The translations under genes were made by a program, and so were the position numbers. Under the pieces are notes generated by a model. It did no database searches. It was not told the DNA's origin and saw only the letters and a list, made by a program, of their open reading frames with translations. A stretch of DNA of 45,879 nucleotides from Tyzzerella sp. (lineage in GTDB: Bacteria; Bacillota; Clostridia; Lachnospirales; Lachnospiraceae): NCBI GenBank assembly GCA_017465565.1, contig JAFTWA010000056.1:1-45879 (forward strand), read 5' to 3'. Positions 7,437 through 27,580 of the stretch are shown here, piece by piece; the stretch's first letter is position 1, and each line of letters begins with the position of its first letter.

Positions 7437-8831
7437 ATGAAAGACCTGGAAATGAATCCATATGTGATTCAGATTGATAAGTTTGTGAATTCATTAGAGA
7501 AGCTGTCACATGTTTTTCTGAATTTGGAAGAGAGAAAAACGTTGTTTACCGAAGAAGAATATTTGGAAATGTGCGAGGACGTGAGCGATAAGGTTTGTAA
7601 AGGCTGTGGAAACCGGGATTTGTGCCTCGGAAGAGAACGTATGTCTACATACGGCATGATACAGGAAGTGCTGCAGACGGTGGAGAATTATGGCGCGGAA
7701 TTAAATGTGGAGGTAAAACGAAAAATTCAGAAGAAATGTACCTGTGCGCCCCAGTTTCTTCGGACAGTTCTGGAGGTTTGCCAGAACGAGAAGCAGAATC
7801 GGGTGTGGGAACAGAAAATGGCCCAAAGCCGGGAGGGCTGTGCGGTGCAGCTGGATACCTTCGCACAAATGATTCAGCATTCTACGCGGGAACTAAATGC
7901 CAGTATTTTTGAGGACGAGCATCTGGAAAAGAAGTTAAAGGGCAAACTCTCGAAAGCGGGATTGAAGCTTCTTAGCACTGTCTTTTTTGTGGCAGAAAAT
8001 GGACGCTATGAGATTCATGTGACAACGAAAGCGGGAAAAGGGCAGTGTATGGCAACAAAGGATCTGGCGAAAATTGTCTCTGACTGTGCAGGCAGACAGA
8101 TGATTCCGGAAAGAGATGAACGTACCACCGTTGGAAGTGAGTACTGTACCATCACATTTATAGAGGGACCGGGCTATCACACGCTGCAGGGTGTGGCAAA
8201 AATTGGGAAAGGCTGTGAGAAGATTTCCGGAGATAGTTTTTCGCTGCTGGAGCTTCCAGGTGGGAAGCAGGGCGTGATTCTGTCAGATGGAATGGGCGCA
8301 GGAGAGAAAGCTTTCCGCGAGAGTGCCATGGTCGTGGAAGTGCTGGAAGAACTTTTGACAGCAGGCTTTCCGAAAGAAACAGCATTACAGATGTTAAATA
8401 CTGCTTTGGTCATTGGACGGGAGGAGGTGCGTTTCTCCACAATTGATGTGTGTTTGTTTGATTTATACACGGGGAAATGTGAGCTTGCAAAGGCAGGTGC
8501 TTCCACCACATTTATCAAACGTGCAGACGGAGTGGAGAGCATAAAGTCAACGAGTCTTCCGATGGGCGTGGTGTCCAGATTGGAAGTGGACCAGGTCGAG
8601 AAGGAGCTTCAGGACGGTGATATGGTTATCATGGTTACGGATGGTGTCATGGATGCGCTTCCAGTTGGGGAACAGGACTTTCTAATGCAAATGATTATAG
8701 AGGGAACGAATTTCAATAACCCAAAAGAGATGGCACACCATATTTTGGAGCAGGTGCTGGAGTGCTCCGGGGAAATTCCGCTTGATGATATGACTGTGTT
8801 AGTAGTAGGGATGTGGAGTCTTGAAAAATAG
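7437..8831 (+). CDS. spoIIE: SpoIIE-type PP2C phosphatase lacking the membrane domain
   Basis: The C-terminal half of this 464-aa protein is a PP2C/SpoIIE serine phosphatase domain: SGDSFS near residue 263, the Asp-containing GVILSDGMGAG, VTDGVMDA, and a final DDMTVLVV. The N-terminal half carries the CxxC-rich region of SpoIIE (KVCKGCGNRDLC, then KKCTCAP). In Bacillus, SpoIIE dephosphorylates SpoIIAA to release sigma-F in the forespore and has about 820 residues with ten N-terminal membrane helices. Here no membrane helices precede the cytoplasmic part, and the divIC terminator 28 bp upstream rules out a hidden extension. It must therefore be soluble or recruited by a partner. Synteny with tilS-hpt-ftsH is exact. 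Confidence 0.88.
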   Translation: MKDLEMNPYVIQIDKFVNSLEKLSHVFLNLEERKTLFTEEEYLEMCEDVSDKVCKGCGNRDLCLGRERMSTYGMIQEVLQTVENYGAELNVEVKRKIQKKCTCAPQFLRTVLEVCQNEKQNRVWEQKMAQSREGCAVQLDTFAQMIQHSTRELNASIFEDEHLEKKLKGKLSKAGLKLLSTVFFVAENGRYEIHVTTKAGKGQCMATKDLAKIVSDCAGRQMIPERDERTTVGSEYCTITFIEGPGYHTLQGVAKIGKGCEKISGDSFSLLELPGGKQGVILSDGMGAGEKAFRESAMVVEVLEELLTAGFPKETALQMLNTALVIGREEVRFSTIDVCLFDLYTGKCELAKAGASTTFIKRADGVESIKSTSLPMGVVSRLEVDQVEKELQDGDMVIMVTDGVMDALPVGEQDFLMQMIIEGTNFNNPKEMAHHILEQVLECSGEIPLDDMTVLVVGMWSLEK

Positions 8832-10809: not shown

Positions 10810-12630
10810 TTGAATAAGAAAAGTAAGAATATAGGAAGTTTTTCGACGTTATTTGTCGTGCTGGGTGTCCTGATATTATATTTTTATCTTGGAAAAATGG
10901 TAAATCAGAGTTCGAGCTATACCTATCAGGAATTTGTAAGTGCTCTTCAGCAGAATCAAATCGAATCTGTTTTTATTGAACAAGATAAAGAAGTTCCAAC
11001 GGGGACATTAAAGATAGAATTGAAGGATGAAGAAGAAGGTACAAAATACCTGGAGGTGTCTGACGTTAATGAAATTCAGCAGGTGATGATAGAAGAGGGC
11101 TTCACATCTTTTGAAATTTCGGAGATTCCAGATGACTGGTTGATGGAGACCCTGATTCCAACGCTTCTGATGATAGGTGCATTTGTTTTGGTATTCATGA
11201 TGATGAACCGGCCAACAGGAGCAAATGCGAAAGCGATGAATTTTGGACGAAACCGTGCAAAGATGACGAATCCTTCAGATAAGCATATTACATTTGCCCA
11301 GGTAGCCGGACTTCAGGAAGAAAAAGAAGAACTGGAAGAGATTGTGGATTTTCTTAAGAGTCCTAAGAAATATATTCAGGTAGGAGCGAGAATTCCAAAA
11401 GGTGTTCTTTTGGTTGGACCTCCTGGAACTGGTAAAACACTTCTCGCAAAAGCGGTAGCCGGGGAAGCAGGGGTTCCGTTCTTTACAATCTCAGGTTCTG
11501 ATTTCGTAGAGATGTTTGTCGGTGTGGGTGCATCACGTGTAAGAGATTTATTCGAAGATGCAAAGAAAAATGCACCATGTATTATTTTTATCGATGAAAT
11601 TGACGCAGTGGCAAGACGCCGTGGTACGGGTCTTGGCGGTGGACACGATGAAAGAGAACAGACCTTGAACCAGCTTTTGGTTGAAATGGATGGTTTTGGT
11701 GTAAATGAAGGTATCATCGTGATGGCAGCGACGAACCGTGTTGACATTCTGGACCCTGCGATTTTAAGACCAGGACGTTTCGACAGAAAGGTTTCTGTGG
11801 GAAGACCAGATGTAAAAGGAAGAAAAGAGATTCTGGACGTGCATGCAAAAGGAAAACCACTCGGTGATGACGTTGACCTTATGCAGGTGGCTCAGACGAC
11901 AGCAGGATTTACAGGGGCAGACCTTGAGAACCTGTTAAATGAAGCGGCTATTTTGGCGGCGAAAGAAAATCGTGTATATATTCAGCAGAAGGATATCCAG
12001 CGTTCATTTGTGAAAGTAGGTATTGGAGCTGAAAAGAAAAGTAAAGTGGTTTCTGAAAAAGAAAAGAAAATCACAGCTTACCACGAGGCAGGGCATGCGA
12101 TTCTGTTCCATGTGCTTCCGGATGTGGGACCGGTTTACAGCGTTTCAATCATTCCTACCGGTGCTGGGGCAGCAGGCTATACAATGCCGCTCCCTGAAAA
12201 AGATGATATGTTTAATACAAGAGGAAAGATGCTTCAAGAGATTACAGTGTCACTTGGCGGCCGTGTGGCAGAAGAGCTTGTATTTGATGATATTACAACA
12301 GGTGCTTCTCAGGATATCAAACAGGCAACAGCCTTGGCAAAAGCTATGGTTACAAAGTTTGGTATGTCAGAAGCATTGGGCTTAATTAATTACGATAGTA
12401 ATAGTGAAGAAGTATTCGTTGGAAGAGATTTCGCGCAGGCAGGAAGAGGCTATGGAGAAGAAGTGGCTGGCAAGATTGACAGTGAAATAAAACGAATTAT
12501 TGATGAATGTTATAAGGAAGCGAAGAGAATTATTGAGGAACACAGAAATGTGTTAGAATCATGCGCCAAATTATTACTCGAAAAAGAAAAAATTACAGGC
12601 GAAGAATTTGGGACATTATTTTATGAATAA
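10810..12630 (+). CDS. ftsH: ATP-dependent zinc metalloprotease FtsH
   Basis: This 606-aa membrane AAA+ protease degrades membrane proteins and short-lived regulators. Two membrane helices (about residues 10-27 and 114-132) bracket a small extracytoplasmic domain. Walker A GPPGTGKT is at 203-210, Walker B is IIFIDEIDA, and the second region of homology is [19 protein letters not shown]. The zinc site HEAGH is at 425-429, followed by TTGASQDI. The start is TTG at 10810, preceded by GGAAGGAG at proper spacing. In Bacillus, FtsH is also required for sporulation, in keeping with the cluster. Its last codons overlap the following GH13 gene. Confidence 0.97.
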
Positions 12631-18636: not shown

Positions 18637-18707
18637 GCGGGTGTAGTTCAATGGTAGAACACCAGCCTTCCAAGCTGGATACGTGGGTTCGATTCCCATC
18701 ACCCGCT
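18637..18707 (+). tRNA. tRNA-Gly (TCC), attachment site of the element
   Basis: This 71-nt tRNA has acceptor arms GCGGGTG and CACCCGC, anticodon loop CTTCCAA (TCC), and T-arm ending GATTCCCATCACCCGC. The gene is intact, but its 3' end is the left copy of the direct repeat bounding the integrated element, so integration restored the tRNA. Confidence 0.96.
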
Positions 18708-18712
18708 TTTTT
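18688..18712. repeat. Left attachment repeat (25 bp, tRNA-Gly 3' end)
   Basis: The 25 bases here are identical to 27556-27580. The core includes GATTCCCATCACCCGC plus the following T-run. Confidence 0.93.
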
Positions 18713-18719
18713 TATTTGT

Positions 18720-18759
18720 TTAGGAAACCAAGTAAAATCAAGGTTTCCTAATTTTTTTT
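18720..18759 (+). terminator. Terminator just inside the element's left end
   Basis: TAGGAAACC and GGTTTCCTA (18721-18750) form a perfect 9-bp stem with a 12-nt loop, followed by ATTTTTTTT on the plus strand. It ends the host tRNA transcript before it can enter the integrase gene antisense. Confidence 0.9.
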
Positions 18760-18771
18760 ACTCATTTTCCG

Positions 18772-18788
18772 TCGGTACGTTCGGTACG
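18772..18788. repeat. Direct repeats near left end (probable integrase arm sites)
   Basis: TCGGTACG occurs at 18772-18779 and 18781-18788, followed by a partial copy TCGTAC. The same octamer pair is found near the right end at 27466 and 27477. This symmetry suggests arm-type binding sites of the integrase. Confidence 0.65.
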
Positions 18789-18801
18789 ATTCGTACTGAT
18801 T

Positions 18802-20049
18802 CTATAAAGACAAGGCTTGGCTGATTGCATCTGCTTGTTCTTCTTTTGTCCGTCGCTCGTAACTATAATATGAAAAGGTGGTGTTTAGATTTTGGTGTCC
18901 AGCGAATCTCATAATTGTACGATTGTTTACGCAATTTGAGTCAAGGAGCGTGGAGATGCATGTTTTCCTACATTTATGCGGACTTTTTTTGATTGTGTCT
19001 AACCTAGCACATAATTTTCTTAGTTTTCTGTCGGCAGAATTATAACTTAATCGGTAATCATATTTTGGATTTGTACTTTGGAATATCCATTCAGCAGTCA
19101 AATTATGTTCTCGATTATATTCAGCTACTTGTTCAAGAATTTTCTGTGCTTCTGTGGTTAAAGGAATATCACGATAACCAGCAGATGATTTTGTCCATTC
19201 TTTTACACCATCATTATCAGCTTGTCTCTGTATGTATAGTCGATTGTTGCGTACATCACTCCATTGCAATCCTGTGGCTTCTCCTATACGCAATCCAGTC
19301 TCAAAGAGGAATAATATTTGTAGTCCAGCACTTGTCGGCTGTTTTTTGTATTTCTGTAAATCCTCTTGCACCATGATTTTTAATTGTCTGCGTTCATCAT
19401 CTGTAAATACTTGTGATTCATCAGACGGAGTGGGATTTGTAACAAAAAGGTCTTTGTTGATTTTTTTACGAGCTTTCTGCCATGTATTCTCCGATACGAT
19501 TGCTATGTCCTCATCTGAGGCATATTCAAAGCATTGGTTAATAATCGTAAAAATGCGACTGAATTTCTTTTTGTCTACTGGATAATGTTTTTTCATTAAA
19601 TCCTCAGCCCATGTACGAAGCTCCAAAGATGTTAATTTAGCCATAGGCTTTCGTATAATCTCTTTGGATGAAGATTCACCCTCATAATATGCTTTCCATG
19701 AGGCTTCAATTCGTTTAATGTTTTCAGCGTTTTTTGGTGTGCGTTTCCATGCTAACCATTTTACATATAGATTTTCTAGTGAGATATTTCTATCTGATTT
19801 GTCAATGTACCATTCAGCAAGTGCCTCCCATAGACTTTCCTCGCTACAACGTCTGATTTTCCGTTTGCCACTAGGTTGAGTAATGTCTTCTACGTTGGTA
19901 AACCAGCCACTTTTCTCTGTATGGTGTATTTCGTATGGGTGCATTTGTTTTACTTGTTGGATTCGTTTCTTCATAGCTATTATATCCAACATCTCATCTA
20001 TCTGGATTGTATCATCATTTATCAAATTTGTTAAGCTAAATTTTCCCAT
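18802..20049 (-). CDS. int: Tyrosine recombinase (integrase)
   Basis: This 415-aa phage/ICE-type integrase should catalyse integration at, and excision from, the tRNA-Gly site. The N-terminal third is an arm-binding region; a core-binding SAM-like domain spans about 85-190. The catalytic domain from about 215 has Arg254 in TGLRIGEATGLQW, Lys288, the box HKCR at 358-361, His385 in FAGHQNLNT, and nucleophile Tyr394. The chosen ATG at 20049 lacks a clear Shine-Dalgarno, so the true start could be at Met20 or Met26, or expression may be deliberately low. The gene ends about 90 bp from the attachment repeat, the usual arrangement. No excisionase was recognised. Confidence 0.95.
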   Translation of the reverse strand: MGKFSLTNLINDDTIQIDEMLDIIAMKKRIQQVKQMHPYEIHHTEKSGWFTNVEDITQPSGKRKIRRCSEESLWEALAEWYIDKSDRNISLENLYVKWLAWKRTPKNAENIKRIEASWKAYYEGESSSKEIIRKPMAKLTSLELRTWAEDLMKKHYPVDKKKFSRIFTIINQCFEYASDEDIAIVSENTWQKARKKINKDLFVTNPTPSDESQVFTDDERRQLKIMVQEDLQKYKKQPTSAGLQILFLFETGLRIGEATGLQWSDVRNNRLYIQRQADNDGVKEWTKSSAGYRDIPLTTEAQKILEQVAEYNREHNLTAEWIFQSTNPKYDYRLSYNSADRKLRKLCARLDTIKKSPHKCRKTCISTLLDSNCVNNRTIMRFAGHQNLNTTFSYYSYERRTKEEQADAISQALSL

Positions 20050-20156
20050 GGCTTATTACAAGAAATTTTATAAATTTTATATAACATTCTTGTGATAATA
20101 TGGTTTACTTTTTTGTGCATGATAATTTCTTTCTCCTTTCTTGCGTATTTTAAGGA

Positions 20157-20179
20157 GAGGCTGACAACACATCAGCCTC
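20157..20179 (-). terminator. Hairpin downstream of the 46-aa ORF
   Basis: GAGGCTGA (20157-20164) and TCAGCCTC (20172-20179) form a perfect 8-bp stem with a 7-nt loop between the small ORF and int. On the minus strand there is no clean T-run after it, so it may be a weak terminator or a processing structure. Confidence 0.5.
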
Positions 20180-20200
20180 AAAGCTCTCTTTCTATGAATA

Positions 20201-20341
20201 TTATTTTTGTTTTTTTACATAGATTTCTTTGTTTTCTGCAACAGATTCGTCTTGCTGTCCAACTGAAATTTTTGTGTATTCATTTTTAAGCAAATCTGCG
20301 TTTGAGAATGTCGGATTACCGATTATTACATCAAATTGCAT
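20201..20341 (-). CDS. Small protein, 46 aa, starting MQFDVIIGNP
   Basis: This is a short ORF with a strong RBS (AAAGGAGG about 8 bp before ATG) and its own upstream 31-bp-spaced box pair. The product begins with FDVIIGNP, which resembles the FDVIxGNPPY catalytic motif of N6-adenine DNA methyltransferases, but the Pro-Tyr is absent (NPTF) and no methyltransferase fold follows. It could be a relic of a methyltransferase 3' part, or an unrelated small accessory protein. It precedes int by about 150 bp and may be cotranscribed with it. Function unknown. Confidence 0.55.
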   Translation of the reverse strand: MQFDVIIGNPTFSNADLLKNEYTKISVGQQDESVAENKEIYVKKQK

Positions 20342-20403
20342 GAGTGCCACCTCCTTTGTTATTTTCTAAATTGATTTTACAACGAAATGTTTATATAAAC
20401 TAT

Positions 20404-20442
20404 CGGAGCAATTTCGAGTTTTTGCTATATTTTACGGAGCAA
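20404..20442 (-). promoter_or_regulatory. Box pair A (31-bp spacing) upstream of the 46-aa ORF
   Basis: CGGAGCAA occurs at 20404 and 20435 (plus-strand reading), starts 31 bp apart. On the coding strand, TATAAA follows the proximal TCCG after an 8-bp gap and may be a -10 element. This is one of five such pairs in the element. Confidence 0.65.
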
Positions 20443-20446
20443 TAAT

Positions 20447-21157
20447 TTATTGCAGTATTGGTTCGGCTAAAACAAGATATATGTTTCTGTCCTCGCCTAT
20501 ACGTCTGCAAGATTTGTCTCGACAACTGCGAATACAGTTTTTACAGATGGCAAGATTGCAGACAGCTACATTTCGTACAACGTCATAGTATTCTGTTTTA
20601 TATTTTTTTCCCTTGTACAGAACGACTGGGAGCTGTGTTGTTTCATCAATTGCAACGACAGGCAAATAACATTCACAATTGTTGTCGCTGATATATACTG
20701 AAGTATCATCTACGTGGTTCATACATATAATTGGTGCAGTGTAATATGTTTTTTCTTCATCAGAAAAGGACAAATTCTCAATGTCAATTACTGACAATCC
20801 AACACCATGCAGAGCAATCCCAGAGCTTTTATTAAAATTGTAGGTTAAAGCAACCAGTCTTTCAAAAGCTACTACAACTGGGATTCCTAGTATTAAATCA
20901 TTTCGGATTTTTTTGTAAATATCGACAACATCATCAAGATAACGAACGGATACTATTTTTGTCGCATTACCTCTGGTAAGAATTTTTAGTGTAATATTGT
21001 CGTAGGGATACTTTTTATTGTATCGAACAGTGCAGTCAACAACACGATAGCTATTTTGGGAATATGGATGTAACGCTTCTGGACTTAAATCCATGTACAT
21101 TGGGCGACCATCTTCAAAGTGTGTTTTATTGACTGCATAGATTTTCTTTGTACGCAT
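20447..21157 (-). CDS. Unknown protein, 236 aa, with C-terminal cysteine cluster
   Basis: Not recognised. A central part (about residues 50-135) reads LKILT...VxVRY...VVVAFERL...ALHGVGLSVIDIENLSF. It aligns by eye with the two small DUF961-like proteins of the element, suggesting a divergent paralogue. The C-terminus has five cysteines in a C-x4-C-x2-C-x3-C-x4-C layout followed by Arg, which could bind zinc. The RBS AAAAGGAGG is good. It is directly downstream of rep and has its own box pair B, so it may be transcribed both with rep and alone. DNA binding or regulation is possible but not demonstrated. Confidence 0.6.
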   Translation of the reverse strand: MRTKKIYAVNKTHFEDGRPMYMDLSPEALHPYSQNSYRVVDCTVRYNKKYPYDNITLKILTRGNATKIVSVRYLDDVVDIYKKIRNDLILGIPVVVAFERLVALTYNFNKSSGIALHGVGLSVIDIENLSFSDEEKTYYTAPIICMNHVDDTSVYISDNNCECYLPVVAIDETTQLPVVLYKGKKYKTEYYDVVRNVAVCNLAICKNCIRSCRDKSCRRIGEDRNIYLVLAEPILQ

Positions 21158-21220
21158 TGTAAATGCCTCCTTTTTTGCTTTTTTTCTTTAATGGTACACT
21201 ATTTTGAGACGTATGTCTGT

Positions 21221-21259
21221 CGGAGCAAATGGCTCGTTTTACACACATTTACGGAGGAG
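21221..21259 (-). promoter_or_regulatory. Box pair B upstream of the 236-aa gene
   Basis: CGGAGCAA at 21221 and CGGAGGAG at 21252 start 31 bp apart, with the 236-aa start codon 64 bp away. The distal box overlaps the outer arm of the hairpin after rep. Confidence 0.65.
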
Positions 21260-21287
21260 AGCAGAGAAGTAAATCTCTGCTGCCTCC
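21252..21287 (-). terminator. Hairpin after rep
   Basis: GCAGAGA (21261-21267) and TCTCTGC (21274-21280) form the inner stem; flanking GGAGG/CCTCC extends it. It lies between the rep stop and the next gene. It lacks a T-run on the minus strand, so it may only attenuate transcription. Confidence 0.55.
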
Positions 21288-21295
21288 ATATTTTA

Positions 21296-22360
21296 TTATT
21301 CCTCGAATGGAAGCTCGGTTTGTTCGGCTTCAAATGGAATAGGTTCTGTTACTGGATGAAACTGTTCGTCTCGTTTCAGATATTTGTCAACAGAATCGTA
21401 TGTTGTGATTGTTCCATCTTCTGAGTAGATTCTAACCTCATGGATTCGGCGTAAGAATGCTTTCCATGATTCTGGATTGCTTTTTTGTACGTCAGAGTAT
21501 TGTTCCTCTAGTGTCCAATTCGAGATTATATACAAAAAGTCGTAGCAAGCATAACGATTTGAATATCTCGCTGGTAATTGTATCGGATAAATATCGAGGT
21601 AATTTAGCATGTCTTGTAGTTTTAAACTGGAGCGAAATTCATCAAATGCAATTACCGGCTCGCAATTATAACTGTCAAATGGGTGCTGATAGTCTGAAAC
21701 ACGATAGACGTTTTCGTCGGAATGTGAATCCAGCACGCCTCTAGTTTTTCCAGTTCCAGTAGCGCCACTAATATACACGACTTTCAAATCCAGTCGGCGT
21801 GAGCTTTTATATTTGTCCATTAAATAAGTAAGACGGAGCTTTGCAATTTTATCTATATGCTTGATAGCTGTGTCACCACATATTTCTATGATTTCAGAAT
21901 CTTTCAAACCATCTTTAACTAACTGATAGAGGTGTTCCAAGTCTGTCCGTCGACCTTGATGAGAGACTGGAAGCTCACCCCATTCTTCAAATGTTTCTAT
22001 TAGATTTGTTTCTTTTTTTTCGGAATCAAGATATGCTCCCTCTTTACGAATATAGTCTCGGTTCTGCTGTGCTGTGCCTTGGGTTGCTTGAATATCCATA
22101 CTTGGAAACTTGTTTCGTAATGTGGAATGTCTAACGCCTTGCTGTTTCGTGTGAAAATATATGTGTGTATGTGGTGTTTGTGTTTCTAGTCCGATTTCAT
22201 CGCACAGACAAAAATAATCCATGCGAGGAATTGTATGTAGGCGTTTTATGATTTCCTCGTGAGTGTAGCCTTTTTCTGACGGATTGTTACAAGTCATTAT
22301 GTACGCTAATGCTTGTGTGTCTTTCTTTGGTTTCTGGTTTTTGTTTTCTTTTGTTTCCAT
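21296..22360 (-). CDS. rep: Replication initiator: HUH endonuclease-SF3 helicase (CRESS-type Rep)
   Basis: This 354-aa protein has the domain order of CRESS-DNA virus Reps. HUH domain: motif I YIMTCNNP at about 20-27, motif II PHTHIYFH with the His pair 64/66, motif III with Tyr103 and Lys106 (YIRK). Superfamily 3 helicase: Walker A GATGTGKT at 199-206, Walker B VIAFDEF at 236-242, motif C YIISN at 277-281. Tyr103 should nick the origin and start rolling-circle replication; the helicase would unwind. The acidic C-terminus ends ELPFEE. A longer frame opens with TTG, but GGAGG at 22366-22370 places the start at 22360. Related Reps are known from bacterial pCRESS plasmids, phytoplasma plasmids, geminiviruses and circoviruses. 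Confidence 0.93.
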   Translation of the reverse strand: METKENKNQKPKKDTQALAYIMTCNNPSEKGYTHEEIIKRLHTIPRMDYFCLCDEIGLETQTPHTHIYFHTKQQGVRHSTLRNKFPSMDIQATQGTAQQNRDYIRKEGAYLDSEKKETNLIETFEEWGELPVSHQGRRTDLEHLYQLVKDGLKDSEIIEICGDTAIKHIDKIAKLRLTYLMDKYKSSRRLDLKVVYISGATGTGKTRGVLDSHSDENVYRVSDYQHPFDSYNCEPVIAFDEFRSSLKLQDMLNYLDIYPIQLPARYSNRYACYDFLYIISNWTLEEQYSDVQKSNPESWKAFLRRIHEVRIYSEDGTITTYDSVDKYLKRDEQFHPVTEPIPFEAEQTELPFEE

Positions 22361-22381
22361 TTTTACCTCCTGTGTTTCAGA

Positions 22382-22395
22382 GGTTGTCGACAACC
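22382..22395. promoter_or_regulatory. 14-bp perfect palindrome upstream of rep
   Basis: GGTTGTCGACAACC is fully self-complementary and lies 22 bp before the rep start codon, between box pair C and the RBS. It is a probable operator for a dimeric regulator, perhaps Rep itself. A cruciform nick site is an alternative. Confidence 0.6.
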
Positions 22396-22446
22396 ATGTT
22401 TAGTAATTACATTAAAAGATTAGCATATTACAATAATATAATCAGT

Positions 22447-22485
22447 CGGACAAGAAACGTGGTTTTGCACAAATTTACGGAGCAA
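22447..22485 (-). promoter_or_regulatory. Box pair C upstream of rep
   Basis: CGGACAAG at 22447 and CGGAGCAA at 22478 start 31 bp apart. On the coding strand a TATTAT hexamer follows the proximal TCCG after 8 bp, the same offset as in pair A. Confidence 0.68.
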
Positions 22486-22981
22486 AAAGAGTAGCAACAT
22501 CAAAATGAATTTGCGAACCCACCAGCTTTATATTCATTATATATAGTCCAGCCATGATACAAGGATATAAATTCCAAGCTACATCATAGCCAAGATGTAA
22601 AATAGATTGTTGCTGGAACTGTGCTATGTGGCTGGCAAGTGTTTCTTTATACTGCAATAGCACAACTGTATTTGGTGGGTTGAGTGTAAGTATCTCGAAT
22701 GAGTACAAAAACCCACCATCCAAAATCCTGCAACCCACATATCTAAATTCTTCTGGGAAGTTCACGAGTAGAAAGGAATGAGGAAAACGTCGGAACACAT
22801 CATACATTTCTGATTGTATCTGCTGTGCAATTAGGAATGTGTTTTGTTCCACTTGATATTGTCTGGCAAGCGCTTTCTCTTGCTTCTTATAATTTTTATA
22901 CTTTTTAATGTAGCCACAAAGGGATTTTTTATATCCCTCTGTGATGCTACGAATTTTGTTCAAAATTATTTTCAAATTCAT
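22475..22981 (-). CDS. Unknown protein, 168 aa
   Basis: Not recognised. The N-terminal 50 residues are strongly basic (many Lys, Arg and Tyr) and probably helical. The rest is a mixed, moderately hydrophobic domain with no signal peptide. A basic helical arm could contact nucleic acid, but this is only inference. The start at 22981 has GGAGG 9 bp upstream, which overlaps the stop of the preceding gene. It is the last gene of a four-gene run (130-aa, 114-aa, 142-aa, 168-aa) leading to rep. Its 3' end overlaps box pair C. Confidence 0.6.
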   Translation of the reverse strand: MNLKIILNKIRSITEGYKKSLCGYIKKYKNYKKQEKALARQYQVEQNTFLIAQQIQSEMYDVFRRFPHSFLLVNFPEEFRYVGCRILDGGFLYSFEILTLNPPNTVVLLQYKETLASHIAQFQQQSILHLGYDVAWNLYPCIMAGLYIMNIKLVGSQIHFDVATLFAP

Positions 22982-22994
22982 AGCTAATTACCTC

Positions 22995-23423
22995 CTAGAT
23001 TCTTGGCGCTAGAATGATTTTGCGAGCTGTTTCGTATGCTAACGGATTGTCTACATGGATAGCAGTTACAACAATATTGTTTTGTTGTTCTTGTATATCA
23101 GCAATCACCACAGCTTGCATGGAATCTTGAATACAATCACCCTCTTTATATGGGCGTATATTTGCATCGTACAAATAGATGTTTAAATGCTTGTTGAACA
23201 CATCAACCATTTCCTCGAATGTAAAATTGAATTTTCTCTCAGCTATTTTAGGAAATGAATAATCTATTTTTGTAATTCCTTTTTCAGTATATAAATTCAC
23301 ATCTGTATGAGCTGGAATTTCTGGAACTGTATAACCCAATACGTGTTGATAATATTCTGCGACCAACCAGATGAGATAGATTAGCTCATGGAACAGCCGA
23401 GATTTTAAGTTAAATTTAACCAT
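22995..23423 (-). CDS. Unknown protein, 142 aa
   Basis: Not recognised. It begins with a hydrophobic, Tyr/Trp-rich helix (LFHELIYLIWLVAEYY) that looks amphipathic rather than membrane-spanning, then a mixed alpha/beta domain. An upstream extension overlaps the previous gene, but AATTGTGGAGG sits just before the ATG at 23423, giving this shorter start, 4 bp after the previous stop. Tight packing with its neighbours implies one operon and probably a shared process with Rep. Confidence 0.6.
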   Translation of the reverse strand: MVKFNLKSRLFHELIYLIWLVAEYYQHVLGYTVPEIPAHTDVNLYTEKGITKIDYSFPKIAERKFNFTFEEMVDVFNKHLNIYLYDANIRPYKEGDCIQDSMQAVVIADIQEQQNNIVVTAIHVDNPLAYETARKIILAPRI

Positions 23424-23427
23424 TGTT

Positions 23428-23772
23428 TTATTCCTCCACAATTTCAAAGTTTTTTGCCGAAGCATTGTATCTGGTAATTGTGTGACCAGTTTTGATATCT
23501 CGATATGTGTAGCTGTCAATGTGCAAATCTGTGAATGAAATCTCGACCATGTTCACAGCCGAATCTATACATTTCTGTTTCAATATCAGCGCCTTGTTTT
23601 TTATGGTGTCTGATACTGGTAATTTCACATATAGATATTCAGATGGATTTTTAGTCAAGATTTTTAAAGCGTATGTGTATGGCTCGGTGTCTTTGTAATT
23701 ATGGTAAAAGTTTTTGCCACCGACACAGAGACCATTTTCATTTGATAATGGAGAGAGGTCTGATAGCTTCAT
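23428..23772 (-). CDS. DUF961-like small protein, 114 aa
   Basis: This appears to be a paralogue of the 130-aa protein encoded just upstream. Both share YALxI...LxVKxP, then VEISFTDL, then SAKNFEI near the C-terminus. The pattern resembles DUF961 (YdcP-type) proteins found next to replication and transfer genes in Tn916-like elements. Their exact function is not established. GGAGG at 23778-23782 fixes the start at 23772, even though the frame stays open further upstream. Confidence 0.6.
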   Translation of the reverse strand: MKLSDLSPLSNENGLCVGGKNFYHNYKDTEPYTYALKILTKNPSEYLYVKLPVSDTIKNKALILKQKCIDSAVNMVEISFTDLHIDSYTYRDIKTGHTITRYNASAKNFEIVEE

Positions 23773-23794
23773 AAATACCTCCAATTTGGGTTGC

Positions 23795-23821
23795 ATGGGG
23801 AGTGGTTTGTTTCTCCCCCAT
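23795..23821 (-). terminator. Hairpin between the two DUF961-like genes
   Basis: ATGGGGAG (23795-23802) and CTCCCCCAT (23813-23821) can pair with one bulge. No T-run follows on the minus strand, so it may tune expression of the downstream genes rather than end the transcript. Confidence 0.5.
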
Positions 23822-23858
23822 ACAATGTCCCATTTTTTTTCAATATTCAGTTTTAATT

Positions 23859-24251
23859 TTACAAGTCGATATCTACATCAACATCAAGTTCTTGTGTTGT
23901 GTACTCGAAATCATCAGCTTTTGCTGATACGCCAGATAGAACACTACCATCTTTGGTGAGCATTGCGTAAGGCGATAATTTGAGATTCGTGAAGCTTACC
24001 TCCACGAGCATATCGTCTTGTAAAAGAGCTGTAATTTTTTCAACTTTCTCTTTTACAGCTTCTGGGAATTTGACCTTAAGCGTATCGCCTCGGTACGCTG
24101 AGCAGTCCAAGGCGTAACCGATAACTTTATCGGTGTATGTTCCGTCAACAAGGCGCTCACGGATAACGCTCGTTCCTATCACCTCCATTTTCCTAGAATT
24201 TGTTGTTTTCGCCACATTGGCGAGAGTTAGTCTCACGTTTCTTAACTTCAT
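23859..24251 (-). CDS. DUF961-like protein, 130 aa
   Basis: The central region has GYALDCSAYRGDTLKVKFP, followed by VEVSFTNLKLSPYA and a terminal SAKADDFEY with an acidic tail. This fits the conserved outline of DUF961/YdcP-like proteins carried by Gram-positive conjugative and mobilizable elements (Y-L-S, V-x-x-P, V-x-N, ADDI). The fold looks beta-rich, so an OB-like or other nucleic-acid-binding role is possible but unproven. GGAGG at 24261-24265 supports the start. It is the first gene of the four-gene run before rep, behind box pair D. Confidence 0.62.
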   Translation of the reverse strand: MKLRNVRLTLANVAKTTNSRKMEVIGTSVIRERLVDGTYTDKVIGYALDCSAYRGDTLKVKFPEAVKEKVEKITALLQDDMLVEVSFTNLKLSPYAMLTKDGSVLSGVSAKADDFEYTTQELDVDVDIDL

Positions 24252-24327
24252 GAGCTTATACCTCCATTTCTTTTAAAATATTATATTTTATAATTTAATT
24301 ATTACATAAAATAAAAAGAGGAATTGT

Positions 24328-24366
24328 CGGATGATAAGGAAGATTCAAAGGGGAATCACGGAGTAG
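24328..24366 (-). promoter_or_regulatory. Box pair D upstream of the 130-aa gene
   Basis: CGGATGAT at 24328 and CGGAGTAG at 24359 start 31 bp apart. Between them, the coding strand has ATTCCCCTT, which is shared almost exactly with pair E (AATCCCCCTT). Confidence 0.62.
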
Positions 24367-24390
24367 AATTGAGTGATAAAAAGAAACAAT

Positions 24391-24422
24391 ATCCCCCAGT
24401 TCTGAGATTGAAGCTGGGGGAT
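24391..24422 (-). terminator. Terminator of the 356-aa gene
   Basis: ATCCCCCAG (24391-24399) and CTGGGGGAT (24414-24422) form a perfect 9-bp stem with a 14-nt loop. A T-rich tail (ATTGTTTCTTTTT) follows on the minus strand, 5 bp after the stop codon. Confidence 0.85.
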
Positions 24423-24427
24423 AAGTA

Positions 24428-25498
24428 CTATTCTGATTGAGAGAGTTTAAGCAGAAGTTGTGTTTGAGCTTCTTCATGCATTGCTTCTAGTGTATTATTA
24501 ACATTTAACATAGTGTCTGTAATTTGTTTCATCATTGCTATAAAGGTATCAGAGTTTATGTCATCAGCAGTAAGTTGTTTATTTAACTCATTTAATTTTA
24601 AATTAATTTCGTTCATTATGCTTCGAGCAGAAATATCAATACTGTTTTTTTTCTTCCTTTGCTGAATAAGATTATAAAAATCTGGAAATTCCTGTTCTAC
24701 AGCTATTACATTATCGGCTAATTGTACAAGATAATTAGTAAATTCTGTTGAATCGAACAGAATATCTTTTTCTTCTTCTGTGCCATTAAACAATTCATTT
24801 CCATGTATTACAGATTTTAGGGCTTCGGAGGTTTGAAATAATACATGTTCATCTGTTTTTATAAATCTTGTAATTAGTCTGAGACATACTGTAACAATTA
24901 AGAGCAAATCTTTGTCACCAGCCAAAAAATCTAATAAAAGGCGATTTGGTAAAACGTCAGATACATCTTTTTTACCCATAGGAGCTATGACACCTGTTGG
25001 AGCAAAATAGAAATTAACAAGGTCAGCTATACTATATTGTTTACTGCTTTCACCAATATTTGTGCTATAGTTTGTGCTGTTATTTATTTGAGTAGTTGCT
25101 TTATTACTTTTTAAGATATTAAAAAGTTTTATCTCGGATGCACAAATATATTCTTCTGGTAGTCCAGCATCAACAAATGCGGTAGCTAATTTGATGTAAT
25201 TTTCGTTTGAAGTGATTTTCTTGGAATTTAGCATATTACGGAAATTATCATTTGCTTGCTTGTTCTGAGTAGCAATTTTATCATCTTCCTCTGATTTTGA
25301 ATCACTCAATCCAGTAGCTGAATAAAACACATTCATGCTACTATCAATTCCTATGGCAGATGTTGTGAACACTGCTTTAAAAGTATCTCGTATTATGAGA
25401 ATATTGCGTTTCAGATTGTTCACATGGTAAGTATAATGTTTGTTTGAAGGATTTAAATTAATCACTATCAATTTTTGATTTTCTGAATTTCTAATCAT
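24428..25498 (-). CDS. Unknown protein, 356 aa
   Basis: Not recognised. It is soluble, largely alpha-helical in its C-terminal half (heptad-like stretches around IMNEINLKLNELNKQL and MLNVNNTLEAMHEEAQ), with a Ser/Asn-rich segment in the middle (about 130-160). No P-loop, HUH motif or catalytic signature is visible. The start at 25498 is chosen because AGGAGA lies 9 bp upstream. It stands as a single-gene unit with its own terminator and box pair E, next to the candidate origin. A structural or host-interaction protein is conceivable, but nothing shows it. Confidence 0.6.
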   Translation of the reverse strand: MIRNSENQKLIVINLNPSNKHYTYHVNNLKRNILIIRDTFKAVFTTSAIGIDSSMNVFYSATGLSDSKSEEDDKIATQNKQANDNFRNMLNSKKITSNENYIKLATAFVDAGLPEEYICASEIKLFNILKSNKATTQINNSTNYSTNIGESSKQYSIADLVNFYFAPTGVIAPMGKKDVSDVLPNRLLLDFLAGDKDLLLIVTVCLRLITRFIKTDEHVLFQTSEALKSVIHGNELFNGTEEEKDILFDSTEFTNYLVQLADNVIAVEQEFPDFYNLIQQRKKKNSIDISARSIMNEINLKLNELNKQLTADDINSDTFIAMMKQITDTMLNVNNTLEAMHEEAQTQLLLKLSQSE

Positions 25499-25569
25499 TT
25501 GTAAATTTCTCCTTTGCATATTTTTCGCTTTACATATACATTATATCATATCATAAAAAATGTGTTTTA

Positions 25570-25609
25570 CGGATAAATTGTAAAAAGTAAGGGGGATTCT
25601 CGGAGCGAA
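25570..25609 (-). promoter_or_regulatory. Box pair E upstream of the 356-aa gene
   Basis: CGGATAAA at 25570 and CGGAGCGA at 25601 start 31 bp apart. A TATAAT hexamer lies on the coding strand at about 25543-25548, closer to the gene. Confidence 0.62.
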
Positions 25610-25724
25610 AGATTGTTCTAGGAATGTGAGTGTTTGACAAGTTGAGAGAGTAGTAAAACAGAGGGGAGAGGTTCTAAAGCATTGTAAATGGAGAAGTTGT
25701 TCAAGAACTGTTTGATGTTTGATA

Positions 25725-25766
25725 AGTGCGTGGCAATGATAAGCACGCACTAGCCACTTGCGTGGC
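25725..25766. repeat. Two adjacent perfect hairpins in the candidate origin
   Basis: Hairpin 1: AGTGCGTG (25725-25732) pairs with CACGCACT (25744-25751) around an 11-nt loop. Hairpin 2: GCCAC (25753-25757) pairs with GTGGC (25762-25766) around TTGC. The octamer TGCGTGGC is also directly repeated at 25727 and 25759, 32 bp apart. Confidence 0.75.
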
Positions 25767-25777
25767 GTGTGCCATAG

Positions 25778-25856
25778 CCCCATGACAGCTCCGTAACGTA
25801 CTCCAGCTACTCCGTCTGCACTTCGTAGCTTTCTTACGTTACTGCTGTCTGTGGGG
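25778..25856. repeat. Long nested hairpin, candidate replication or transfer origin
   Basis: Four arms nest in order: CCCCA (25778-25782) with TGGGG (25852-25856); GACAGC (25784-25789) with GCTGTC (25844-25849); GTAACGTA (25793-25800) with TACGTTAC (25835-25842); AGCTAC (25805-25810) with GTAGCT (25825-25830). The apical loop is 14 nt (TCCGTCTGCACTTC). All arms pair perfectly and are separated by small internal loops. No gene covers this region (25,499-25,945). Such an extended imperfect palindrome fits a double- or single-strand origin, or an oriT. A structured RNA is the alternative. Confidence 0.72.
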
Positions 25857-25945
25857 GCGTGGGCAAGATTCGGATGTTATAGTGTCCAAGTTTGATATAC
25901 CTCTTTAATTAAATTTGTTTTATGGGATGACCCAGTCTCCTAGCT

Positions 25946-26740
25946 CTAATTGTGGATTTCAAAGCCTGGTATTTCTTCTCCCTGATTGTCCTCTGGGTTG
26001 CCTTCGACTTTTCCTACTTCCCAACCGTCTGCTGAACCAAAACCACTTGATGAGCCAGAGCCTTCGTCGGAGTTGTCTGCTGGTGGGGTGCTTGATTGAT
26101 TGTTACTGCTACTGTTGTTTTTGTTTGAGGATGAACTGTTGTTATTATTTTTATTTGATGAAGATTGATTAGTTTGTTGCTGTGGTTGAGTTGGTTCTGG
26201 TTCAAACTCTATTAAACCTTGTAAGACATCTGTGCCTTCTCCAGTAACAGCTGCTGACCTATTTACAACCTCTGAATAATCACATAAAGCATCATATACT
26301 TCTTTGCCTGTTGCGTTATCTGGTAGGTCTGAAAGTGCTACTGCTAGTATACTGCCTAAGTCCTCTTTTGAAACTCCTTGAAACCATCCATCATTGATTA
26401 AGTATAAAGAATCTATAAATTCTACCGAGTATTCGTAACGTACACCACCACCCTCACTGATACGTTTTAAGTGGGTTGAACCTAGGGTTAAGCATTCTTG
26501 GTTTTCATTCATTGCTGCCCAGGCATCTTCCCATTTGTCTTGACTAGACTGCTCTCCACGGTCTAGGTTGAGTTCTGCACCTTGGTCGAGGTCTTGTTGA
26601 GCTTCCATCTCTTGCTTGATTTTGGTAGCTTCTTGTTTTTCTTTGTTCTTTTGATTGTTATATGTAGTTATAGCTACAATTACTATACCTATAATAAATA
26701 GCGCTGTAATACTTGAAATCATTATGCTTTTCTTTTTCAT
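25946..26740 (-). CDS. Membrane-anchored protein with Ser/Asn-rich tail, 264 aa
   Basis: The N-terminus is KKK followed by one hydrophobic helix (about residues 7-26), giving a signal anchor or uncleaved signal. A charged coiled-coil-like stretch (about 30-65) and a small globular region (about 75-175) follow. The remainder is low-complexity Ser/Asn/Gln/Gly, typical of an exposed linker. No LPXTG is seen. The start is ATG 26740, behind GGAAAGGG; a longer frame with GTG is less likely. It follows the 84-aa gene by 44 bp and shares its Xre-controlled promoter. It may be a surface protein of the element (exclusion, attachment or signalling are guesses). Confidence 0.6.
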   Translation of the reverse strand: MKKKSIMISSITALFIIGIVIVAITTYNNQKNKEKQEATKIKQEMEAQQDLDQGAELNLDRGEQSSQDKWEDAWAAMNENQECLTLGSTHLKRISEGGGVRYEYSVEFIDSLYLINDGWFQGVSKEDLGSILAVALSDLPDNATGKEVYDALCDYSEVVNRSAAVTGEGTDVLQGLIEFEPEPTQPQQQTNQSSSNKNNNNSSSSNKNNSSSNNQSSTPPADNSDEGSGSSSGFGSADGWEVGKVEGNPEDNQGEEIPGFEIHN

Positions 26741-26784
26741 TTCGATAACCCTTTCCACTTAAAAAATATATTATATAGATTATA

Positions 26785-27039
26785 TTACAGAAAAATCTTA
26801 TTTGTAAACCATATAAGATGTTTTACATTTTTAAATCGTTCATATTCTTGAATATCATGTACAATTCTATTCCATATTTCTTGACTTGTTTTTTTATCCA
26901 ATGTTACATCAAGATAGCTAATCTCTTTTAAAAACTGTTCTGTCCATTTGTTTGCAACTTTTGGATGTCTGTTAATAAAATCAATCAATTCTTTTCCATT
27001 TAATTCAGATGATATCCTATCAAATTCTTCAATTGTCAT
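26785..27039 (-). CDS. Unknown protein, 84 aa
   Basis: A small, mostly helical, charged protein without membrane segments. GGAGG lies 6 bp before the ATG. It is the first gene transcribed leftward from the divergent promoter shared with the Xre regulator, so it occupies the position of an early or lytic-side gene in phage-like switches. No family is recognised. Confidence 0.6.
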   Translation of the reverse strand: MTIEEFDRISSELNGKELIDFINRHPKVANKWTEQFLKEISYLDVTLDKKTSQEIWNRIVHDIQEYERFKNVKHLIWFTNKIFL

Positions 27040-27074
27040 GTTCTACCTCCATGCATAGCAAAGTTATTTTTTGA

Positions 27075-27133
27075 ATATTCTAACTCGTGGTGAGTTAAAA
27101 GTCAATATAACCACTTTGTTTATATTAGAATAT
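27075..27133. promoter_or_regulatory. Divergent operator/promoter between xre and the 84-aa gene
   Basis: On the minus strand TTGACT (27100-27105), a 17-bp spacer and TAGAAT (27077-27082) form a strong promoter. The palindrome TAACTC-GTGGT-GAGTTA (27081-27097) fills its spacer. A second inverted pair, ATATTCTAA (27075-27083) and TTAGAATAT (27125-27133), covers the minus -10 and the region in front of xre. This is what an Xre repressor operator should look like. Confidence 0.7.
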
Positions 27134-27149
27134 CCATGAGGTGAAAAAC

Positions 27150-27356
27150 ATGGTATATCCAGAGAGAATACGAGCATTGAGAGAAGATAAAGATTTATCA
27201 CAAAAGCAAATAGCTGATATGCTTGGTGTAGCACAAACAACATACTCACAATACGAGCTTTATAAACGCCCAATGCCGATAGAATATCTCGTGGCATTAT
27301 GTAAATACTACAATGTATCATCAGATTATATACTTGGTTTGTCTGATAAAAAATAG
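27150..27356 (+). CDS. Xre-family helix-turn-helix regulator
   Basis: This 68-aa protein is a single HTH_3 domain: IRALREDKDLSQKQIADMLGVAQTTYSQYE covers the helix-turn-helix, and the ending YYNVSSDYILGLSDK is typical of Cro/CI-type repressors in Firmicute elements. It probably represses its own gene and the divergent 84-aa/264-aa operon through the palindromes in the 110-bp intergenic region. GAGGTGA at 27136-27142 places the start at 27150 rather than at the upstream GTG. It is the only clear plus-strand gene in the element. Confidence 0.9.
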   Translation: MVYPERIRALREDKDLSQKQIADMLGVAQTTYSQYELYKRPMPIEYLVALCKYYNVSSDYILGLSDKK

Positions 27357-27358
27357 CT

Positions 27359-27406
27359 CCTATTAAATGATAAAATTTATTGTTTGATTGGAGTATTTTT
27401 TTGAAA
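27359..27406 (+). terminator. Terminator-like imperfect palindrome after xre
   Basis: CTCC...GGAG arms enclose an A/T-rich imperfect palindrome centred on ATAAAATTTAT and are followed by ATTTTTTT. Confidence 0.6.
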
Positions 27407-27412
27407 AAGTTG

Positions 27413-27441
27413 TTGACACTAAAAACAGTTTATGATATTAT
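27413..27441 (+). promoter_or_regulatory. Strong outward promoter at the element's right end
   Basis: TTGACA (27413-27418), a 17-bp spacer and TATTAT (27436-27441), preceded by AAAAAGTTG as in the stable-RNA promoters at 18454 and 45711. No ORF follows inside the element. The transcript would start with hairpin GTGCT-GAA-AGCAC (27449-27461) and cross the integrase repeats and attachment site. Confidence 0.65.
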
Positions 27442-27465
27442 ACGTCTTGTGCTGAAAGCACAGTA

Positions 27466-27484
27466 TCGGTACGATTTCGGTACG
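27466..27484. repeat. Direct repeats near right end (probable integrase arm sites)
   Basis: TCGGTACG occurs at 27466-27473 and 27477-27484. It is the same octamer as at 18772 and 18781 near the left end. Confidence 0.65.
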
Positions 27485-27555
27485 ATATAGAAAAATGAGT
27501 AGGATGAGATGTTGTTTTCCTCCTATTTATAATGTTTTTTCAAGCGGTTAGGGAA

Positions 27556-27580
27556 TTCGATTCCCATCACCCGCTTTTTT
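27556..27580. repeat. Right attachment repeat (25 bp)
   Basis: This is identical to 18688-18712. Only the 3' part of tRNA-Gly is present here, so this copy is not a functional tRNA gene. Confidence 0.93.

Follow-up and report, generated by a model that had tools for sequence, protein, structure and literature searches.

We analysed a 45,879-nucleotide stretch of DNA from Tyzzerella sp., a gut-type bacterium (GenBank assembly GCA_017465565.1, contig JAFTWA010000056.1; hereafter the window), which contains a small integrated element at a tRNA-Gly gene. ARAGORN places the tRNA-Gly(TCC) at 18637-18707 on the plus strand, and an exact 25-bp direct repeat of its 3' end occurs at 18688-18712 (+), overlapping the tRNA gene, and again at 27556-27580 (+), with a start-to-start distance of 8868 bp and about 8.9 kb enclosed. 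At the right copy ARAGORN predicts no tRNA. Comparison with related genomes revealed an empty site in the same-genus genome G302, where a tRNA-Phe and a tRNA-Gly are followed by one copy of the 25-mer and then by an adenosine deaminase gene, the same flanking gene as in the window (73% identical), with no element in between. A second same-genus genome (G301) has two copies of the attachment (att) repeat with a different island between them, indicating that the tRNA-Gly site has been used by more than one element. Skew also sets the window's element apart, as the flanking genes are G- and A-leaning on the plus strand and the element is not. A 41-base pattern for the junction of the excised circle had no exact match in viral_contigs, which says little for one strain.

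All genes of the element are on the minus strand except that of the repressor. The proteins were scanned against Pfam, PHROGs and NCBIfam, and start sites were chosen by ribosome-binding sites and Met positions, which shortens Rep to 354 amino acids (aa), p174 to 142, p122 to 114, a 363-aa protein to 356 and a 270-aa protein to 264. Three products have recognisable families. A tyrosine integrase of 415 aa is encoded at one end (18802..20049, -; PF00589 E=2.2e-21; phrog_1 integrase E=8e-39), a Rep of the circular Rep-encoding single-stranded DNA (CRESS) type lies close to it in one compact module, with two small genes between, and a 71-aa Xre/RstR-like repressor (27141..27356, +) is divergent from the rest, matching NCBIfam RstR with E=5.2e-12 and 46 bits (cut-off 80); the relatives described below carry similar Xre genes. 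The other proteins of the element had no convincing family match in the three libraries. Among the library matches there was also no type IV secretion family and no capsid or other viral structural gene, although unrecognisable capsids could escape such scans. A first-pass annotation of this DNA had described a tRNA-Gly-integrated element of ~8.87 kb with a terminal tyrosine integrase, an Xre switch, several unrecognised genes and no recognisable capsid, and all of these points hold.

The Rep gene (21296..22360, -; ~354 aa from the ATG after AGGAGG, within a longest open reading frame (ORF) of 21296-22393) encodes a HUH endonuclease and a superfamily 3 (SF3) helicase, as judged from Pfam, alignment, profile and tree. 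Single-sequence Pfam matches were PF02407 (E=1.8e-4, 22.1 bits, cut-off 26) and PF00910 (E=1.6e-3, 19.3 bits, cut-off 21.5). A profile built from this Rep and 16 relatives matched the solved 'ATP-dependent helicase Rep' 7lar with E=1.2e-23 and covered both domains; we take 7lar to be the Rep of porcine circovirus 2. In all 17 aligned Reps H75, H77, Y114, K117, G210, G215, K216 and N292 are invariant. With regard to the groups pCRESS1-9, motif III of the window's Rep reads YIRK, not YLxH. The earlier assignment of HUH and SF3 motifs as in CRESS-DNA viruses is thus borne out. Among plasmids, the best match is RepA of p4M (32% over 67%), and in the p4M annotation an FtsK/SpoIIIE gene lies directly upstream of RepA.

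Among 299 genomes of the family, 23 had relatives of Rep, as did 6 of 398 genomes sampled from the phylum, with the window's own genome included in both counts. In species genomes 193 Rep relatives were detected, and the best 80 were retained; IMG/VR contributed 7, phage records 6 (all bajarodino viruses under Inoviridae) and plasmids 2, with p4M the better match. Without six duplicates (L030, L032-L036) and two loci whose Rep ORFs are shorter than 280 aa, the set comprises 106 Rep loci. In the tree of the 106 Reps, the window groups with L060, L050, L062, L059 and L095 (support 99/87) within a 50-row clade (99/98), and its nearest Rep sisters are integrated elements, not inoviruses. Exact repeats of a tRNA 3' end bound all six members (window 25 bp, L059 23, L095 18, L050 22, L062 25, L060 25), so the six can be regarded as complete elements. 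They span 7.0-8.9 kb, the repeats of the five kin being 7.0-8.6 kb apart, and the tRNA adjoining the integrase is Gly-TCC three times, Gly-GCC, Lys and Ser. The closest kin is L059, at the same type of tRNA, with 70% DNA identity over 1340 nt in the integrase region and similarity at the far end as well.

A candidate origin hairpin lies at 25725..25751 (-), with an 8-bp stem and the loop CT-TATCATTGC, in which the nonamer occupies 25733-25741. Counterparts were found in all five clade kin; in the six elements the hairpin is flanked by the exported-protein gene on one side and by the p130 operon, or what corresponds to it, on the other. In every case the nonamer ends the loop and abuts the right stem, while the stems all differ. 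The nonamers are TATCATTGC in the window, TAGCATTGC, TAACATTGC, TAGTATTAC twice and AAGTATTAC. On the 5' side of the origin hairpin, the flank at 25750..25860 (-) is structured as well and contains CGGAG motifs and another small hairpin (GCCACGCAAGTGGC); the fold z-score of 25560-25930 is -2.86, and the flank is partly conserved in L050 (nhmmer E=6.4e-6 to L050/L030). The structure suspected earlier is real and corresponds to this hairpin.

The 106 loci were scanned for stems of at least 7 bp with a loop ending in NANNATTRC, with the expectation taken from first-order shuffles. This architecture was found in 80 of the 106 loci against 0.55 expected. A strict TAGTATTAC hairpin occurred in 60 of the 106, and 40 permuted nonamers gave none. 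When occurrences of TAGTATTAC were examined for a stem of at least 6 bp, 66 of 80 had one, compared with 4 of 841 for 60 permutations. Because the scan itself demanded paired stems, the shuffles, the permutations and the conditional stem test carry the argument. The 83 hairpin matches include 65 distinct 7-bp stems; 82 are on the Rep strand and 66 fall between -450 and +45 relative to the start of the Rep ORF, and in the window's clade the hairpin is 1.8-3.3 kb upstream of Rep. Two or three of the 83 look like chance matches or belong to a second Rep (the second match in L062, the opposite-strand match in L069 and the second in L091). A phylum-wide search added four new loci, three of them with the hairpin and the fourth a broken Rep fragment. 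The nonamer TAGTATTAC is given for a cyclovirus in PMC6723397. The structured region is accordingly a candidate CRESS-virus-type origin on the sequence evidence, with mostly the circovirus nonamer among relatives. No report of this nonamer in bacterial elements was found in the literature surveyed, which did not extend to supplements and most subscription papers; in the main text of PMC6668415, as distinct from its supplement, the words 'nonanucleotide' and 'stem-loop' do not occur.

Upstream of Rep lie several small genes. Of two paralogues in one profile family, p130 (23859..24251, -) has an oligonucleotide/oligosaccharide-binding (OB) fold of the single-stranded DNA-binding type, resembling 2k5d, and p122 (23428..23772, -) is ~114 aa from an ATG after GGAGG. 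The similarity of p130 to HelP/DUF961 is remote, and p130 is probably a distant homologue of that family. The protein p168 (22475..22981, -) has no transmembrane segments and is a homologue of the soluble domain of the membrane partner of an FtsK/HerA-like ATPase in related elements. It is kept in all six elements of the clade, whose hosts and tRNA sites vary, and this is more than expected of a relic. The product of p174 (p142 when started from its GGAGG site; 22995..23423, -) has a hydrophobic N-terminus and profile matches in L059 and L095/L036. Aligned with the ATPase partner by hhalign, p174 gave E=0.0066 at a probability of 5.7%, a weak hint that it possibly has the same domain as p168.

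The ATPase itself is missing. After exclusion of 9 of the 106 loci with less than 2 kb upstream, an FtsK/HerA- or Zot-like ATPase was found at most 3.5 kb upstream in 71 of the 97 judged Rep loci (window included), and in 40 of the 47 judged rows of the 50-row clade. The six clade elements, the window among them, have no FtsK/HerA/Zot-type ATPase upstream of Rep, and each contains only one Walker A motif, that of Rep. The absence of the ATPase needs 13 changes on the tree and therefore arose more than once. In L101, L103, L108 and L114 the ATPases are 411-494 aa long instead of the usual ~250 and seem to include the membrane partner as a fusion, as TcpA does. The host genome, of which the assembly is 88.6% complete, has two PF03432 (MobP) relaxases outside the element, and these could possibly mark helper elements; Zot (PF05707) had no match in that assembly.

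Taken together, we propose, at a probability of about 75%, that a pCRESS-type (p4M-like) plasmid has integrated here and acts as an integrative mobilizable element (IME). The replication half of this proposal is well supported by a Rep that appears catalytically complete and by the conserved candidate origin. For transfer, we infer from the ATPase of the relatives and by analogy with IMEs (PMC5357655) and with the helP-conQ-nicK genes (PMC3542172) that Rep would serve as the candidate relaxase. In this scheme, the minus-strand genes would be kept silent by the Xre-type protein. After induction, recombination by the integrase between the 25-bp att repeats would release a circle of ~8.87 kb, Rep would open the hairpin at 25725-25751 and nick the loop nonamer TATCATTGC with Tyr114, and its SF3 helicase would drive rolling-circle replication, with the OB-fold proteins p130 and p122 covering the displaced strand or keeping it open. 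In the wider family, a membrane protein and an FtsK/HerA-like ATPase may couple Rep-bound single-stranded DNA to a conjugation pore. The window's element, lacking the ATPase, would probably use the pump of a helper, with p168, perhaps together with p174, as the remaining docking piece. It would be mobilised by helper-dependent conjugation with Rep as relaxase, and the circle would reintegrate at tRNA-Gly.

Much of this setting is already known. According to PMC6668415, 97.5% of the Reps outside pCRESS7 and 9 belong to elements integrated site-specifically in bacterial chromosomes, which have no homologues of known viral structural proteins and are called integrated plasmids. PMC5357655 describes IMEs that have tyrosine integrases and relaxases related to rolling-circle initiators and that in some cases occupy tRNA genes; it includes a Viral_Rep (PF02407) relaxase class and elements without the TcpA coupling protein. 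The first-pass annotation was right that pCRESS plasmids with such Reps exist. It had also suggested a satellite virus or a type of element not yet characterised; neither suggestion is well supported, in view of the integrated plasmids and IMEs just cited, the lack of a Zot match in the host assembly and the lack of a recognised structural gene. Its statement that neither relaxase nor capsid is recognisable holds for the capsid; as to the relaxase, it passes over Rep itself, the candidate for that role.

The element shares with integrated pCRESS plasmids of the p4M-like cluster (pCRESS1-3) the HUH and SF3 Rep, site-specific integration with direct repeats and the lack of a recognised viral structural gene. 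Unlike p4M, which has an FtsK-like gene beside RepA, its clade has none, and it carries OB-fold HelP-like genes and a circovirus-type origin hairpin that the scan did not find in p4M. As in streptococcal IMEs (Rel_PF02407 and Rel_PF01719-PF00910 in PMC5357655), the tyrosine integrase adjoins the Rep or relaxase gene; according to the same text, tRNA targets are used by one integrase family, and TcpA is often upstream but absent in, for example, 11 of 15 members of one class. The window's element differs in keeping a fragment related to a TcpA-like partner, in having no identified excisionase and in matching PF02407 below the cut-off, and its mobilisation is predicted by analogy. Tn916 and ICEBs1 (PMC3542172) likewise have two HelP-like OB-fold genes that precede the coupling-protein locus and the relaxase, and such helP-like pairs are reported in 56 integrative and conjugative elements in that paper. 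In the window, however, the presumed relaxase is a HUH and SF3 Rep, not MobT, the coupling ATPase is absent and the homology of p130 to HelP/DUF961 is remote.

Several results weigh against our proposal. Rep scores below the Pfam gathering scores for both PF02407 and PF00910. The window nonamer TATCATTGC differs from TAGTATTAC at three places, a variant also present in L101; the strict hairpin test is failed by 26 of the 106 loci, where TAGTATTAC stands free in 18 and is absent from the other 8, among them p4M, and no origin of transfer was found besides the hairpin. Members of the p168 family, 14-20% identical, were grouped by the position of their genes, a profile search found no p168 kin, and the structural match to TcpA was no better than that of unrelated rows. 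For p130, the DUF961 hidden Markov model (PF06125) gave no match, nor did it match elsewhere in the genome at E<=0.001. MobT (PF02486) had no match in the 88.6% complete host assembly, no excisionase was identified among the element genes, and neither a free circle nor nicking or transfer was seen.

The absence of an ATPase and of any recognised type IV secretion system or excisionase would also fit a purely vertical integrative plasmid that excises and replicates by rolling circle without conjugative transfer, p168 and p174 being relics or replication parts, and PMC6668415 names such elements integrated plasmids. We consider this possible, though doubtful, since p168 is retained in six of six clade elements across different hosts and tRNA sites, and the ATPase-bearing sister lineages fit a mobilisable ancestry. 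A missing coupling ATPase and several genes without a detectable relative could likewise suggest a decayed, immobile remnant of a larger element. That is improbable: the att repeats are identical, Rep and the integrase are open with conserved motifs, the hairpin is intact, and five similar complete elements are without the same gene.

RS1 of CTXphi is a satellite of a filamentous phage, and the window's element might resemble it, its repressor, Rep and single-stranded DNA-binding protein being carried in helper-made particles. The RstR-like repressor would suit such a satellite, and the closest phage Reps, 41-47% identical, are those of bajarodino viruses (Inoviridae), which nest at two places in the Rep tree, have the same origin type and carry a Zot domain over the cut-off in all five scanned. 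These viruses (PQ006121 and kin) differ from the element in encoding Zot and in not being integrated as deposited. We regard a satellite as very improbable, as the host assembly has no Zot and no coat-like gene was recognised, p168 is related to the partner of an FtsK/HerA-like ATPase, p130 is closer in sequence to HelP/DUF961, and the nearest Rep sisters are integrated elements. One relative, L037 (G111), has a Rep sister to that of bajarodino virus 56 and a PF05707 Zot match (E=1e-18) ~7 kb away on the same contig, and looks like an integrated inovirus by these genes.

In the integrated, mobilizable plasmid that we propose, three features are unusual: its origin is of the circovirus type, it encodes a HelP-like protein with an OB fold, and it has lost the coupling motor but kept the partner domain. 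As pCRESS plasmids in integrated form and IMEs whose relaxases are of this kind are known, the shared origin is of the widest interest. The same Rep domains occur in circoviruses and other CRESS-DNA viruses, and most bacterial relatives share with them the nonamer TAGTATTAC at the end of the hairpin loop, while the window's element has a bacterial host, an integrase, no recognised capsid gene and a size 3-4 times larger. On the basis of Rep proteins, PMC6668415 traces circoviruses, nanoviruses and their relatives back to bacterial plasmids. A circovirus-type origin beside the Reps of bacterial elements and of two inovirus groups gives that argument a cis-acting counterpart and makes the link testable by asking whether a bacterial Rep cuts a circovirus-type loop. 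The hairpin with TAGTATTAC also provides a simple criterion for locating origins in such elements. Our results suggest that CRESS-type Reps can act as relaxases of mobilisable elements, and they reveal a clade that lost the coupling motor and retained the partner domain. As a tentative broader view, bacterial CRESS elements and eukaryotic CRESS viruses might share both Rep and origin, the hairpin serving for replication and transfer with Rep as relaxase, and the clade, having lost the motor but kept the docking domain (p168, perhaps duplicated as p174), might plug into the FtsK-family pump of a helper or the host.

The remaining genes are less informative. Next to the integrase, a 46-aa ORF with a GGAGG ribosome-binding site was read from the sequence at 20199..20339 (-); a 58-aa ORF in the same position in L050 resembles it by eye. 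No function was assigned to the 236-aa protein at 20447..21157 (-), which had no family match and no homologue in a profile search of the fetched relatives, nor was a family assigned to the ~356-aa protein at 24428..25498 (-) by the Pfam, PHROGs, NCBIfam and profile searches. An exported or membrane-anchored protein of ~264 aa (25946..26740, -) has one N-terminal hydrophobic segment and a low-complexity tail rich in S/N/Q/G. Exported or lipoprotein-like ORFs in a similar place in the five clade kin are not homologous to it by profile search; such a gene begins every clade element, often with a Q/N/S-rich tail and with no mutual sequence similarity, and these products may perhaps act in surface exclusion or attachment. 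The 84-aa protein at 26785..27039 (-) was assigned no family in the Pfam and PHROGs scans and has a weak PADLOC match to PtuA (E=2e-4).

A pattern count revealed four copies of the operator- or iteron-like repeat TCCGTRA-N24-TCCGA on the minus strand (20403-20438, 21220-21255, 22446-22481 and 24327-24362), against 0.02 expected, each ~50-75 nt upstream of a gene. By sequence and placement, they are possible operator or Rep-binding sites. The motif CGGAG is also present 5' of the origin hairpin. In L050, four copies of a repeat with TACACTWAGTGTA stand ahead of genes (8365-8482, 11128-11171, 11415-11458), and in L095 a tandem 19-bp repeat precedes the p130 homologue (7645-7758); their sequences differ from those in the window and their placement is similar. 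The G301 island in the same tRNA-Gly site (L173 1219-7659) encodes an integrase that is 28% identical, and its ORFs were judged by eye to be methyltransferase-like, acetyltransferase-like and HD-like. At L032/L091, a single 13.7-kb contig carries two CRESS-type Reps and two integrases in a tandem arrangement, and each Rep has a hairpin of its own.

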